From Clavibacter zhangzhiyongii (lineage in GTDB: Bacteria > Actinomycetota > Actinomycetes > Actinomycetales > Microbacteriaceae), in the NCBI RefSeq assembly GCF_014775655.1, contig NZ_CP061274.1, forward strand, positions 2,542,001 through 2,606,000: 64,000 nt of DNA. The letters are read 5' to 3'. Shown here one piece after another: positions 3,792 to 26,128 of the stretch. The notes beneath the pieces were generated by a model. The model did not search any database and was not told the origin of the DNA. It saw only the letters and a list, made by a program, of their open reading frames with translations. The translations under genes and the position numbers were made by a program. Numbering within the stretch: the stretch's first letter is position 1; every line of letters begins with the position of its first letter.

Positions 3792-4591
3792 CGCACGCCC
3801 GCCGACCGCAGGGTCTCGGCGAGGCGGCGGGCGTGCGCCTCCACGACCTCGGCAACGCGGGCGACCTCGCGGGCGCCGGCGCGCTCGACGGGGATCGAGC
3901 AGCTGAGGGCGTCGGTGGCGGGGATCCGGTAGCCGACCGCCGCGGCGACGCACGCGACGCCGGGGGTGTTCTCCTCCCGCTCGGTCGCGTGGCCGGCCGC
4001 GCGCGCCGCGTCGAGCTGGGCGTCGAGGGCGTCGCAGTCGACGACGGTCGCGGGCGTGAGGGCCGCCAGGGCGCCCGCGCCGAGCGCCCGGCGCCGCTCC
4101 TCCGGGGTGAGCTCGGCGAGGAGCGCCTTGCCGAGCGCCGTCGCGTGGGCGGGGAGCTGCCGGCCGACGCGCGAGGCCGCCCGTCGGGGCTCGGTCGTCT
4201 CGCGGGTGGCGAGGTAGAGCATCAGCCCGCCCTCGCGCCGCGCGTAGTGCGCGGTGTACCCGGTCTCGTCGCGGATCCGCTCGAGCACCGGGAGCGCCTG
4301 CGGCAGCGCCCGGTCGCGGTCGAGGTAGGCGGTGCCGACGACGAGCGCGCGGGATCCGATGGAGACGTGCGTGCCGTCGTGCAGCATCTCGATCCAGCCG
4401 CTCGCGGCCATGGTGTGCAGCAGCTGGTGGAGGCTCGAGCGCGGGTAGCCGGATGCCCGGTGCAGGTCGACGACCGCGACGGGCTCGCCCGCCTCGGCCA
4501 GCCGCTCCAGGAGGGCGAGCGTCCGCTCGGCGGACTTCACGGGCCGGAGGGCGCGGTCGGCCGGCGCCTCGGCCGCCGCCTCGGCCGTCAC
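3788..4591 (-). CDS. IclR family transcriptional regulator
   Basis: The product (267 residues from the second of two adjacent GTG codons) has an N-terminal winged helix at about residues 17-80 (VKSAERTLALLERLA, then PRSSLHQLLHTMAASGW). An IclR effector domain follows, with RRAASRVGRQLPAHATALGKALLAELTPEE and the closing AVGYRIPATDALSCSIPV. The GTG at 4591 is preferred over 4594 because a GGGGGAG Shine-Dalgarno then sits at good spacing and the codon overlaps the uronate dehydrogenase stop (GTGA). It probably senses a sugar acid and controls the divergent locus; a GTTC-N8-GAAC repeat lies in the shared promoter. Confidence 0.88.
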   Translation of the reverse strand: MTAEAAAEAPADRALRPVKSAERTLALLERLAEAGEPVAVVDLHRASGYPRSSLHQLLHTMAASGWIEMLHDGTHVSIGSRALVVGTAYLDRDRALPQALPVLERIRDETGYTAHYARREGGLMLYLATRETTEPRRAASRVGRQLPAHATALGKALLAELTPEERRRALGAGALAALTPATVVDCDALDAQLDAARAAGHATEREENTPGVACVAAAVGYRIPATDALSCSIPVERAGAREVARVAEVVEAHARRLAETLRSAGVR

Positions 4592-5394
4592 CACGGCTCC
4601 CCCAGCGCGTGCTGCGGGGCCGCGAACTCGCCGCCGATGAGGCCGTTCGCGTCCGGGTCGTCCCCGTCGCCGACCGCCGCGAGGACGGCGTCCGCGTGGA
4701 CCTCGGAGTCGTCCCGCGGGTGGAAGCCGATCCGCTCGCCGGGCACGGGCGAGAACCACGCGCGGGTGTTGCGCGAGACGCCCCAGACGACGTGGGCGCC
4801 GGCCTCGTCGAGCACGGCCGCCGCCTCGATCAGCCGCACGACGTCGGGGAAGGAGAACCAGGTCGAGAGGGTCCGCCGGTTCACGGGCCGCTCGAGGATG
4901 CTCCCGATCCGCACGTTGACGACCGCGAGGCCGTGCCGGTCGGCGAAGACGGAGCCGAGCGCCTCCATGGCCGCCTTGCTCGCGCCGTAGTAGCCGTCGG
5001 GTCGGGGATCCAGCTCCTCGACGGGATGCGGCGGGATGGGGTGGAAGCCGACGACGTGGTTGGAGCTCGCGAGCAGGACGCGGCGCACGCCGGTGTCGCG
5101 CGCGGCCTCGAGCACGCTGCGGGTGCCCTCGACGTTCGCGTCGGCGAGGGCGGCCCAGGGGCGCTCGCGGCTGAGCCCGCCGAGGTGCACCACGAGGTCC
5201 GCGCCGGCCAGGGCCGCGCGGACGACGGCCGTGTCGGTGACCGACGCGACGACCGCGGTCTCGCCGTCCACCGGATCCGGGTCGACCAGGTCGAGGAGCG
5301 TCAGCCGGTGGCCGGCCTCCCGCAGCAGCGGGCGCACCCCGCGCGCCACCTGCCCTGCCGCGCCGGTGATCACGATGCGTCGCGCGTCGGACAT
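4588..5394 (-). CDS. udh: NAD-dependent uronate dehydrogenase (SDR/epimerase fold)
   Basis: The predicted reaction is oxidation of D-glucuronate or D-galacturonate to the aldaro-lactone with NAD. The 268-residue product starts with a Rossmann motif GAAGQVARG (11-19). It has the SDR catalytic YGASK (Tyr136, Lys140) and blocks I recognise from Agrobacterium/Pseudomonas Udh: HLGGLSRERPW, ASSNHVVGFHP, STWFSFPDVVRLIEAA and VVWGVSRNTRAWF. It is the first gene of the minus-strand operon and divergent from kdgD, which removes water further down the same pathway. A plain GalE-like epimerase is less likely because of the conserved WFS and WGVS blocks. Confidence 0.85.
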   Translation of the reverse strand: MSDARRIVITGAAGQVARGVRPLLREAGHRLTLLDLVDPDPVDGETAVVASVTDTAVVRAALAGADLVVHLGGLSRERPWAALADANVEGTRSVLEAARDTGVRRVLLASSNHVVGFHPIPPHPVEELDPRPDGYYGASKAAMEALGSVFADRHGLAVVNVRIGSILERPVNRRTLSTWFSFPDVVRLIEAAAVLDEAGAHVVWGVSRNTRAWFSPVPGERIGFHPRDDSEVHADAVLAAVGDGDDPDANGLIGGEFAAPQHALGEPW

Positions 5395-23323: not shown

Positions 23324-23401
23324 CTACTGGCAGGAGTCGCACTGGAGCTCGTCCATGGGGTCCATGGGGACGACGTAGTCGCCGAACGTGTCGTCGTTCA
23401 T
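23324..23401 (-). CDS. Separate 25-residue RNR tail peptide with CxxC
   Basis: The ATG shares its A with the nrdA stop (TGATG) and has its own GGGAGG ribosome site 9 nt upstream inside nrdA. The product is acidic and ends MDPMDELQCDSCQ. This is exactly the kind of end class I NrdA proteins carry: a flexible tail with a redox-active cysteine pair that re-reduces the active site. The nrdA frame itself ends GGVGGAR without any cysteine pair. So the shuttle cysteines appear to be encoded as a separate peptide, or joined by a -1 frameshift. nrdB follows 85 bp downstream. Too short for most gene callers. Confidence 0.72.
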   Translation of the reverse strand: MNDDTFGDYVVPMDPMDELQCDSCQ

Positions 23402-25902
23402 CAGCGTGCACCTCCCACTCCACCGAAGCCGAAGCCCTTGCGGGGCGCGGGAGCGGCCTGCGGCGCCGGAGCGTCCGCGGTCGCGGTGGACGCGGGGGCC
23501 GACGCGGGCGCCACCGCGGGAGCGCCGCCGCCGAATCCGCCGAAGCCCTTGCGCTTGGTGCCGTCGGCGTCCTGCGACTTGTCGACCTTCACGGTCGACT
23601 GCTCGGCCGTGTGGCGCGGCTTCATGTGCAGGTAGTACGTGGTCTTGACCCCGCGCTCCCAGCCGGCGAAATAGATGTCCATCATGTCGCCGAGGTCGCG
23701 CGTCTCGAGGTACATGTTGCGGCTGATGGCCTGGTCGATCCACTTCTGCGCGCGTGCGGCGACCTCGAGGAACGCGTACGGCGAGAGCTGGAAGCTCGTG
23801 CGGTACGTGGCCTTGACGTGGTCCGGGATCGCGGCGATGCCCTGGATGTCGCCCTGGCTGCGCAGGATGTTCTCGCGCACCGTCTCCCAGATGCCGAGCT
23901 CCTGCAGGTCCTTCACCAGGTTCCGGTTGACCTCGAGGAACTTGCCCGAGGAGGTGGAGCGGCTGAAGATCTGCGAGAACTGCGGGTCGAGGCCCGGCGT
24001 GGTGCCGGCGACGAGGCCGATGGACGCGGTGGGCGCGATCGCCATGAGCGTCGCGTTGCGCATGCCGCCCTTGACCTTCGTGCGCAGCGCGTCCCAGTCG
24101 AGGCGCGTGGTGCGGTTGACCTTGACGGGCACGCCGCGGTCGGCCTCCATGAGCGCGATCGAGTCGAGCGGCACGAGGCCCTCCGACCAGCGCGAGCCCG
24201 CGAAGTTCGGGTACGCGCCGCGCTCCTGCGCCAGGTCGGCCGACTCGTCGATGGCCGCGTAGGAGACGTGCTCCATGATCTCGTCGATCAGGTCGTACGA
24301 CTCCTCGGACTCGTACGAGAAGCCGAGCTTCTCGACGACGTCGGTGAAGCCCATGACGCCGAGGCCCACCGCGCGGTTCTGCTGGTTGGAGAAGTCCGCC
24401 TCCTTCACGCTGGAGCGCGTGATGTCGATGAGGTTGTCGAGCTGGCGCACCGCGAGGCGTGCGCTCTGCTCGATCTTCGCGAAGTCGATCTTCCCGTCGG
24501 AGAAGTGCTGCGACAGGTTGATGGACGCCAGGTTGCAGACGGAGACGTTGTCCTCGTCCTGCGGCAGCGTGATCTCGGTGCAGAGGTTCGAGAGGTGGAT
24601 CGTGCCCGTGTTGTTGTTCAGGGCGCGGTTGTTGATCGTGTCCTTCCAGGTCAGCCACGGGTGGCTGGTGGTCTGGAGCGAGATGAGGATCGACTTGAAC
24701 TGCTCGCGCGCCTTGATGCGCTTGAACATCCGGATGCGCCCGGCCTCGGCCTCGCCGACGTAGAACGCGTAGCGCTCGGAGAACGCCTTGCCGTACAGCT
24801 CGTTGAGGTCGGAGACCTCCAGCGGGTCGAAGAGGTACCAGTCCTCGTCGTTCTGGACGCGCTTCATGAACTCGTCGCTGATCCACACCGCGGTGTTCGC
24901 GGTGCGGGTGCGGCGGTACGGGTCGCCCGAGTTCTGGCGCAGGTCGAGGAACTCGGGGAAGTCGAGGTGCCAGTTCTCCATGTAGAAGCACAGCGCGCCG
25001 AACTTCTTGCCGCCGCGGCTGACCGCGCGGAGCACCGAGTCGATGGTGTGCATGAACGGGATCGGGCCCGTGGAGGTGGTGTTGTTCGAGCGGATGGGCG
25101 AGCCCTGCGCGCGGAGCTTCGAGACGGAGAGGCCGATGCCGCCCGTGCCCTTCGTGAGCCACATGACGTCGCGCGTGGTCTTCGCGATGTGCTCGATGTC
25201 GTCCTGCATCTCCATGACGAAGCAGTTCGCGAGCTGCGGGTAGATGGTGCCCGCGTTGACGAGGGTGGAGCCGGCCGCGAGGTACTCGAGCTTCGACATC
25301 TTCTCGTAGAACGCGATGGCGGTGGAGGTGGGGTCCTGCTCGTTGAGCGTGAGGCCCATCGCGATGCGCATCCAGAAGTACTGGGGCACCTCGAGGGCGT
25401 CGCCGTTGCGGCCCTTGATGCCGTAGCGGTTGTTCAGCGTGACGACGCCGATGTACTTGAGCAGCTCGTCGTGCGCGGGCTCGAGGGCCTGGGCGAGGCG
25501 CTCCAGGTCGAACAGCTGCACGAGGCGGGAGTCGAGGAGCATCTCGTCGACGCCGCGCTGGATGTTGCGGGCGAAGTGCTCCGCGTGGAGGCGCTTGAGC
25601 TCCTCGGGCGACGAGTAGTCGCCGAGGACGCGCTTGTAGATGGTCTTGAGGAGGAGGCGCGCGGCGACGGTGTCGAACGCCGGGTCGTCCTTCACGTTCT
25701 GGAGCGCGACCTGGATGACGGCCTCATCGAGCTGCTGGGTGGTGATCCCGTCGAAGAGGGTGATCTCCAGCTCGGACGCGATCTGCGTGACCCAGCCGAT
25801 GTTCTCGTCGAGGCCCTGCGTGGCGTCCTCGATGGCCAGGTTGATGCGGTTCGCGTCGTACGGCTCCCGCGTGCCGTCGCGCTTCACTACGGTGATGGAC
25901 AC
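23401..25902 (-). CDS. nrdA: Ribonucleotide reductase alpha subunit
   Basis: The 833-residue catalytic subunit starts with an ATP-cone (about residues 1-92, ITVVKRDGTREPYDANRINL). The active-site cysteines are present: Cys227 in QLANCFVM, Asn/Cys/Glu in SNLCTEITLP and Cys in SVCNLASINL. The radical-path tyrosine pair lies in VKTTYYLHMK. The last 70 or so residues are a low-complexity Gly/Phe/Ala linker with two KGFGGFGG/KGFGFGG blocks, ending without the usual C-terminal cysteine pair; that pair is in the overlapping ORF at 23324. The GTG start has a GAGGAG ribosome site. NrdR and DnaA sites lie upstream. Confidence 0.96.
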   Translation of the reverse strand: MSITVVKRDGTREPYDANRINLAIEDATQGLDENIGWVTQIASELEITLFDGITTQQLDEAVIQVALQNVKDDPAFDTVAARLLLKTIYKRVLGDYSSPEELKRLHAEHFARNIQRGVDEMLLDSRLVQLFDLERLAQALEPAHDELLKYIGVVTLNNRYGIKGRNGDALEVPQYFWMRIAMGLTLNEQDPTSTAIAFYEKMSKLEYLAAGSTLVNAGTIYPQLANCFVMEMQDDIEHIAKTTRDVMWLTKGTGGIGLSVSKLRAQGSPIRSNNTTSTGPIPFMHTIDSVLRAVSRGGKKFGALCFYMENWHLDFPEFLDLRQNSGDPYRRTRTANTAVWISDEFMKRVQNDEDWYLFDPLEVSDLNELYGKAFSERYAFYVGEAEAGRIRMFKRIKAREQFKSILISLQTTSHPWLTWKDTINNRALNNNTGTIHLSNLCTEITLPQDEDNVSVCNLASINLSQHFSDGKIDFAKIEQSARLAVRQLDNLIDITRSSVKEADFSNQQNRAVGLGVMGFTDVVEKLGFSYESEESYDLIDEIMEHVSYAAIDESADLAQERGAYPNFAGSRWSEGLVPLDSIALMEADRGVPVKVNRTTRLDWDALRTKVKGGMRNATLMAIAPTASIGLVAGTTPGLDPQFSQIFSRSTSSGKFLEVNRNLVKDLQELGIWETVRENILRSQGDIQGIAAIPDHVKATYRTSFQLSPYAFLEVAARAQKWIDQAISRNMYLETRDLGDMMDIYFAGWERGVKTTYYLHMKPRHTAEQSTVKVDKSQDADGTKRKGFGGFGGGAPAVAPASAPASTATADAPAPQAAPAPRKGFGFGGVGGAR

Positions 25903-26080: not shown

Positions 26081-26096
26081 TCACTATATATGCGGG
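26081..26096 (-). promoter_or_regulatory. NrdR box 1
   Basis: TCACTATATATGCGGG matches the left 11 positions of the palindromic NrdR consensus (acaCwAtATaTwGtgt). It lies 32 bp, about three helical turns, from box 2, the usual arrangement for this ATP/dATP-sensing RNR repressor. Confidence 0.75.
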
Positions 26097-26112: not shown

Positions 26113-26128
26113 ACCCCATATGTAGTGG
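26113..26128 (-). promoter_or_regulatory. NrdR box 2
   Basis: ACCCCATATGTAGTGG matches the NrdR palindrome at 12 of 16 positions and is in phase with box 1. Confidence 0.72.

Follow-up and report, generated by a model that had tools for sequence, protein, structure and literature searches.

The nrdA-nrdB Locus of Clavibacter zhangzhiyongii

The window analysed here, a stretch of 64,000 nucleotides from Clavibacter zhangzhiyongii (contig NZ_CP061274.1, positions 2,542,001 to 2,606,000 of the forward strand), contains the nrdA and nrdB genes, which code for the large and small subunits of a class I ribonucleotide reductase (RNR), with a very short open reading frame (ORF) lying between them (Table 1). 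In class I enzymes a cysteine pair at the C-terminus of the large (alpha) subunit reduces the disulfide formed in the active site, and this pair is then reduced by thioredoxin or glutaredoxin. The NrdA protein of the window ends in RKGFGFGGVGGAR, followed by a TGA stop, and has no cysteine in this tail; the chain terminates in GGVGGAR, and the CxxC motif, which class I alpha subunits carry on the same chain, is encoded by the separate short ORF, hereafter the tail ORF. A reading made from the letters of the window alone (the sequence-only reading) had described both the 833-residue NrdA lacking its cysteine pair and the 25-codon ORF that starts on the last base of the nrdA stop, has its own GGGAGG site and ends in CDSCQ, and both descriptions were confirmed.

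The two genes overlap by one base at a TGATG junction, in which the final base of the nrdA TGA doubles as the A of the tail ORF's ATG start. A 7-base run upstream of this ATG (GGAGGTG) matches the Shine-Dalgarno sequence, and the -1 frame is open far upstream of the end of nrdA. The same tail ORF is present in all 18 genomes of the genus, window genome included, where a comparison of substitutions had only two distinct DNA sequences and one synonymous difference to work with, and every one of the six named records whose tail is 100% identical belongs to Clavibacter. The 25-residue product matches no family in NCBIfam or PHROG, and its weak Pfam matches (DUF5816, E 0.04; a zinc finger, E 0.7) were taken as due to chance.

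The rest of the enzyme is complete. Matches to PF03477, PF00317 and PF02867 above the cut-off (ATP-cone, all-alpha and barrel domains) extend across the full length of NrdA, and the curated NCBIfam model NF005101 is aligned from position 1 to 822 of its 822 with residues 1-821 (1729 bits, cut-off 988), so that the model stops where the chain of the window stops. Cys227, Cys441, Cys456 and Tyr756-Tyr757, which we take, after Escherichia coli NrdA, to be residues of the active site and the radical path, are kept in blocks aligned with PDB entry 5im3, indicating that the tail pair is the sole missing part. This is also the single RNR large subunit matched in the genome. The linker at the end of NrdA (window positions 23404-23580) holds two (R/K)GFG-type motifs, one of them at the extreme C-terminus. 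Two (R/K)GF(G/A) motifs are found within the last 140 residues in 88 of 102 Microbacteriaceae NrdA proteins and one in the other 14, and in the family sequences inspected the motif nearest the end stands at the new C-terminus. Relatives with a fused tail have between 0 and 3 RKGFG-type motifs in their last 220 residues (34 loci), and it is therefore not established that the second motif was gained as part of the split.

Table 1. Positions of the features discussed, in window numbering unless a genome locus is given
Feature	Position	Strand	Description or basis
nrdA, class I RNR large subunit, 833 residues	25902-23401	minus	GTG start; domain and NCBIfam matches
Shine-Dalgarno site of tail ORF (GGGAGG)	23416-23411	minus	within the end of nrdA, 9 nt before the ATG
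Tail ORF, 25 residues, MNDDTFGDYVVPMDPMDELQCDSCQ	23401-23324	minus	own Shine-Dalgarno site; ends in CxxCQ
nrdB, RNR small subunit, 331 residues	23238-22243	minus	next gene downstream of the tail ORF; domain and NCBIfam matches
Upstream NrdR-box-like site of nrdA promoter, CCACTACATATGGGGT	26113-26128	minus	relaxed score
Downstream NrdR-box-like site of nrdA promoter, CCCGCATATATAGTGA	26081-26096	minus	relaxed score; 32 bp from the upstream site
Unlinked tail ORF of the window genome, 28 residues, MDYDNNDTVGGYAIPVDPMELLQCDSCQ	G000:C1:2915341-2915424		GGGAGG site and paired boxes upstream

Conservation of the Split Tail in Microbacteriaceae

The 3' end of nrdA was read at 103 loci of the family, 18 of them from the genus and 85 from other genera. 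A short ORF ending in CxxCQ lies downstream of nrdA at 97 of these loci, whereas at five others (L111, L137, L144, L145 and L146) nrdB follows nrdA with no tail between them; L136, at a contig edge, was not scored as tail-less. With respect to nrdA, the tail is in frame 2 at 82 of the 97 loci, in frame 0 behind the stop at nine and in frame 1 at six, and the nrdA frame is closed by TGA (67 loci), TAA (22) or TAG (8). With three frames and three types of stop, no common frameshift or readthrough could join the tail to NrdA. One of the six loci in frame 1 is L138, an assembly with a disrupted nrdA end but an intact tail ORF; it was kept in the frame counts and left out of the frame-closure count. 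Seventeen near-copies from the same genus (L002-L018) were omitted from the NrdA tree and from the counts of codon diversity and frame closure. Among the 79 non-redundant loci, the frame of the tail is closed within the 12 nt that precede the nrdA stop, or past that stop, in 27, and the tails, measured from the first possible start, are 21-57 residues long (median 27).

Across 80 linked tails, diversity at the first, second and third codon positions is 0.135, 0.113 and 0.395, the roughly threefold excess at the third position being the pattern of a protein-coding sequence. Pro, Asp, Pro, Met, Cys, Cys and Gln are invariant at their positions, both cysteines and the last glutamine being present in 80 of 80; the ORF closes with CxSCQ-stop in 79 tails and CEGCQ-stop in one.

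Unlinked Copies and Co-Occurrence with NrdA

Loss of the tail at the five loci that have no linked copy was ruled out, since for each of them a tail ORF sits elsewhere in the genome. In four further genomes of the same search, including that of the window, the linked copy is accompanied by an unlinked one. One of the genomes with only an unlinked tail is G032 (L146, L159), the smallest NrdA-containing genome of the set (about 0.93 Mb), whose NrdA has a short linker and whose unlinked tail lies behind NrdR-like boxes 32 bp apart.

A profile built from 33 tails (A1) was run on 199 genomes of the family, 91 of which were counted, by our reading of the search results, as holding an NrdA of the type found in the window; this count includes two genomes (G039 and G117) in which the 3' end of nrdA was unread and which enter here only. 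The profile finds a tail in 91 of these 91 genomes, against 3 of the 108 without such an NrdA. In 101 of these 108 there is a distant RNR match alone, about 30% identical in the rows listed, which we read as being mostly class Ib NrdE. The three exceptions are two assemblies without any RNR match (G128, 77% complete, and G186) and one weak match (G156, E 9.5e-4). The idea that all Microbacteriaceae have the tail was rejected, because 105 of the 108 genomes without this type of NrdA show no match at E 0.001. In the 91 NrdA genomes, two tail matches are the most frequent number (59 genomes), followed by three (16), one (10) and four to six (6), with five to six matches in each of G057, G141, G068, G160 and G192. 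One extra copy (L383, genome G074) is identical to the tail of a viral contig (L209), so that some of the extra copies reside in prophages.

NrdR-Like Boxes and Neighboring Genes

Paired boxes resembling those of the repressor NrdR precede nrdA and the unlinked tail gene in the window genome, where an nrdR gene is also present. They were evaluated with a relaxed score, whose box consensus is the one we take to be that of NrdR. Upstream of the unlinked tails, a pair scoring at least 22 and exactly 33 bp apart occurs at 65 of 89 loci (78 distinct upstream sequences), and a score of at least 23 is reached at 55 of 89, compared with 0 of 445 shuffled sequences; as a control, the stretch upstream of linked tails has no such pair (0 of 35). 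Promoters of nrdA in the family reach a score of 22 in 91 of 99 cases, mostly with 32 bp between box starts (0 of 495 shuffles), and fused relatives outside the family have the pair in just 3 of 33. Boxes of 16 bp that start 32 or 33 bp apart leave 16 or 17 bp between them, and this agrees with the spacing of 14-17 bp in the binding rule given, together with a strict search pattern, in PMC12051234. The strict pattern is found in 33 of the 78 distinct unlinked promoters (shuffles 3 of 1560) and in 42 of 99 family nrdA promoters (shuffles 6 of 1980), the controls giving 0 of 34 for linked tails and 3 of 297 for random pieces. Two boxes at the published spacing and, in the window genome, an nrdR gene are the features of an NrdR regulon that were observed, and the unlinked tail gene is probably under NrdR control like nrdA, as judged from these boxes.

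The NrdB protein of the window reads EEANHCMSF, with Phe at what we presume to be the position of the radical tyrosine (Y122 in E. coli). This residue suggests a class Ic (Mn/Fe) enzyme. Tropheryma whipplei is placed in class Ic in the classification given by a review (PMC4009431).

Probable Origin from a Fused Tail

Outside the family, 47 loci were fetched from order and class samples (L045-L091); one of them (L077) runs off its contig and was omitted, and the tail is fused in frame to NrdA in all 46 that could be read. These fused tails are typically CPVDPMERLQCESCQ or CPVDPQERLQCESCQ, more distant ones being similar to CSIDDPECEACQ. The tail of the nearer relatives in other Actinomycetota, CPxDP(M/Q)ExLxCExCQ, shares a homologous DP...CxxCQ motif with the split tails, and their NrdA proteins are 65-74% identical; the fused tails, by contrast, belong to the NrdA chain itself and carry a third cysteine (CP) ahead of DP, at a position occupied by V (79 of 80) or I in the split ones. 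When profile A1 was run on 149 genomes of the order (10 listed as Microbacteriaceae), 11 genomes matched beside that of the window, all through frames of 458-1098 codons, that is, fused tails; detection of these by a profile of split tails, with the C-terminal CxxC in common, identifies the small ORF as a homolog of the redox tail. The same sample has 25 genomes with a fused NrdA of this kind, of which A1 reaches just these 11, so that a stand-alone tail of the distant type could escape detection.

An NrdA tree limited to residues up to 770 was built from 80 split rows (of 82 family rows prepared) and 45 fused rows, L058 being omitted as partial. All 80 split rows fall on one side of a single branch (SH-like approximate likelihood ratio test, SH-aLRT, 100), with one change separating them from the 45 fused rows; the tree is a quick one, with long-branch warnings among the fused rows and a midpoint root for drawing alone. 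The simplest history is one in which an ancestral fused tail was split off, apparently a single time, at or close to the base of those Microbacteriaceae that have this NrdA.

Phage, Plasmid and Viral Copies

A tblastn search with one unlinked tail matched six phage records with E-values from 4e-3 to 2. A short query gives weak E-values, and these matches were therefore judged by the motif and the stop that follows it. The tail is present, unannotated, in Pontimonas phage phiPsal1 and in Clavibacter phages CMP1 and CN1A (two records each for the Clavibacter phages). It lies directly behind a holin gene in phiPsal1 and CMP1, and behind a metallophosphatase that comes after two holin-type genes in CN1A. 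A diverged stand-alone tail, MDDFDTIDGFACPNDPADLVSCESCQ, was also seen in Pseudanabaena phage Pan2 (L200, 2980-3069), overlapping the annotated hypothetical gene Pan2_27 in another frame; this phage is said to infect a cyanobacterium, and its tail retains the CP of the fused tails, so that stand-alone tails may extend beyond the Microbacteriaceae. No RNR large subunit was found in the searched records of these four phages.

A scan of IMG/VR confirmed 334 places, the best 80 of which were kept. DPM..CxxCQ-stop is present in 79 of these best 80, although the search itself favours CxxCQ, so that retention of the motif is not independent evidence. No match to nrdA was found at any of the best 80 of 334 loci, within flanks of up to 4 kb, and nrdB was found at four; PF02867 was likewise absent from the 47 whole viral records searched, many of which are fragments. 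Ten neighboring proteins from nine viral loci comprise four lysis proteins (E 6e-7 or better) and one further, weakly matched, along with an HNH nuclease, an exonuclease-like protein and three without a match. A strict NrdR pair is rare before viral copies (1 of 68; shuffles 6 of 1360). Host fragments may be present among the viral contigs, but this does not apply to the three sequenced phages that have Microbacteriaceae as hosts.

A cassette in which nrdB immediately follows the tail occupies positions 3917-5133 of one viral contig (L236; 116,681 bases) that lacks an RNR large subunit, and the encoded NrdB is 86% identical to that of the window. Another contig, also without a large subunit, has thyX, the tail ORF, a 316-residue ORF and nrdB in a row (L270, 2509-6098), the 316-residue ORF being intein-like by eye, with no Pfam match.

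Plasmids also carry the tail. Nineteen plasmid records were matched (15 of Clavibacter, three of Leifsonia and one of Gryllotalpicola; best E 4e-5, weakest 0.07), and the RNR large subunit is absent from both plasmid records that were searched for it. In a plasmid of Leifsonia sp. ZF2019 (L201, 3962-4063), the 33-residue tail WP_223361114.1 has been misnamed 'ribonucleotide-diphosphate reductase subunit beta'.

A Proposed Redox Tail Acting in Trans

The favoured explanation, to which we assign a probability of 0.87, is that the redox tail of this class I RNR was split off and is now the product of a separate microprotein gene that acts in trans. It builds on features that are all observed: a tail that is split off, is conserved with strict cysteines, exists as unlinked copies too and co-occurs with NrdA, together with promoters that have NrdR-like boxes. 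Turnover would leave a disulfide in NrdA, by homology between Cys227 and Cys456; the free peptide would dock on NrdA, possibly at the C-terminal (R/K)GF(G/A) motif, and its CxxC would take over the disulfide, to be re-reduced in turn by a donor of the thioredoxin type. In the window, the peptide would be translated from its own Shine-Dalgarno site between nrdA and nrdB, probably by termination-reinitiation at TGATG, and the second, unlinked gene would supply extra peptide. In the ordinary, fused arrangement the RNR tail has been described as swinging (PMC3618301).

Several points weigh against this explanation. Translation of the tail, its control by NrdR, docking and thiol exchange are all deduced from sequence. 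The best Shine-Dalgarno-like run at the candidate starts has just four bases in 30 of 79 loci, and five have none; fewer than half of the promoters conform to the strict NrdR pattern, and those of nrdA and the unlinked tail in the window genome fit, by their letters, the relaxed score alone. The 91 genomes with NrdA share ancestry and are hence not 91 independent events.

The unlinked and viral copies could also have other jobs. The linked ORF would then be the redox tail, while the unlinked, plasmid and phage copies would bind NrdA as regulators or decoys and so inhibit it, in the way that Sml1 inhibits RNR in yeast or that the C-terminus of UN-24 acts in Neurospora and yeast (PMC3618301). 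Carriage of tails by phages and plasmids whose searched records have no RNR large subunit fits this proposal, as does the toxic complex that, in experiments reported in PMC3618301, a free RNR C-terminal piece forms with Rnr1 in yeast. We nonetheless consider it unlikely, because five host genomes contain unlinked copies only, which would need to serve as the tail; unlinked and viral copies also retain CxxCQ, a point of lesser value since the searches select for it.

The sequence-only reading had left two alternatives, a peptide acting in trans or a -1 frameshift producing some fused alpha subunit, and while the first is strongly supported by the 97 of 103 loci, the three frames and the unlinked copies, the second is not. 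A programmed -1 frameshift near the end of nrdA, with the small ORF as a tail exon, would agree with the tail being in the -1 frame in the window and at 82 of the 97 loci, and with the window's own -1 frame being open far upstream, and a rare, low-level slip product is possible in the genus of the window. As a general mechanism it fails, for it would need the same frame, free of stops, throughout: the tail lies in other frames at 15 loci (nine in frame 0, six in frame 1), its frame is closed near the nrdA stop at 27 of 79, and in five genomes it is only found elsewhere. No slippery heptamer was seen by eye in the last nrdA codons, and a stop-start overlap of the TGATG type would itself favour frame 2, all of which makes programmed frameshifting decidedly improbable. 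It is harder still to credit that the family NrdA uses another reductant and that the tail ORF is a functionless relic; the peptide is known from its sequence alone, as a relic might be, but strict cysteines, low diversity at first and second positions, co-occurrence with NrdA in 91 of 91 genomes and maintenance in the smallest NrdA genome and on phages speak against it. A sequencing error or strain-specific frameshift, which the sequence-only reading had proposed to exclude through the nrdA 3' ends of relatives, is refuted by those ends, which show a split tail across the family, and by the genus, all 18 of whose genomes share this layout.

If the tail acts in trans, the mobile copies may be explained in the same terms. 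Phages of Microbacteriaceae would bring no RNR large subunit and would deliver the redox-shuttle peptide of about 25 residues alone, often beside lysis genes and without the NrdR control of the host, pushing the host RNR to make deoxynucleotides; plasmids and extra chromosomal copies would do likewise, and the tail would be a free, mobile gene family. This proposal, for which we see even odds, draws on the position of the genes and on tails being carried in the absence of an RNR large subunit. If it is true, the tail peptide is among the smallest auxiliary metabolic genes, and its dosage is a regulatory handle on RNR, of which no example was found in the open-licence literature searched.

RNR is an essential enzyme, and tethering normally keeps its tail within reach of the active site at each turnover. 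A family with a free tail thus offers a natural system in which to study the purpose of tethering, the mode of docking and the relation between tail supply and deoxynucleoside triphosphate (dNTP) synthesis, and it gives a testable function to those phage and plasmid ORFs, about 25 codons in length, that the records examined leave unannotated or label as hypothetical.

Comparison with Known Systems

The open-licence literature searched gave no instance of a split tail in class I, of a free peptide corresponding to the RNR tail or of a phage carrying such a peptide, nor was the yeast work found in which an RNR tail reportedly acted in trans. The statement of the sequence-only reading that it knew of no described RNR with a split tail was too strong, because the class II NrdJab of Pseudomonas aeruginosa precedes the present case (PMC4520616). 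This closest precedent consists of a catalytic chain, NrdJa, and a separately encoded chain, NrdJb, which has the C-terminal redox cysteines; according to the sections of that paper on the split enzyme, NrdJb carries out the dithiol exchange, the genes form one operon and both are needed in vivo, which proves the principle where the second chain is large. That paper, of 2015, describes the NrdJ split in Proteobacteria as the only split RNR found in a non-viral organism. The window enzyme is not a split class II enzyme of this type, since it is class I, with an adjoining nrdB, and its small chain has 25 residues. NrdJb, as outlined in PMC9669993, is a chain of 229 residues with predicted folded domains, as opposed to a peptide of about 25, and NrdJab is a class II (B12) enzyme for which those same sections of PMC4520616 mention no unlinked, plasmid or phage copies.

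Two other systems share parts of the arrangement. In Aeromonas phage Aeh1, the homing endonuclease mobE divides NrdA into two parts, and this class I large subunit, as summarized in PMC3653736, is still functional when encoded by two genes. That split comes from an inserted phage endonuclease, and it is neither confined to the tail nor family-wide, with no stand-alone copies mentioned in that summary. In Neurospora, the C-terminal domain of UN-24 is a free piece of the RNR large subunit that acts in trans on the RNR large subunit, although, in the account given in PMC3618301, it is an incompatibility domain of 135 residues and a toxic transgene, not a natural separate gene for turnover. Set beside these systems, what looks new in the Microbacteriaceae is the combination of a class I enzyme, a peptide of only about 25 residues, its dispersal to several genes, and its carriage by phages and plasmids.

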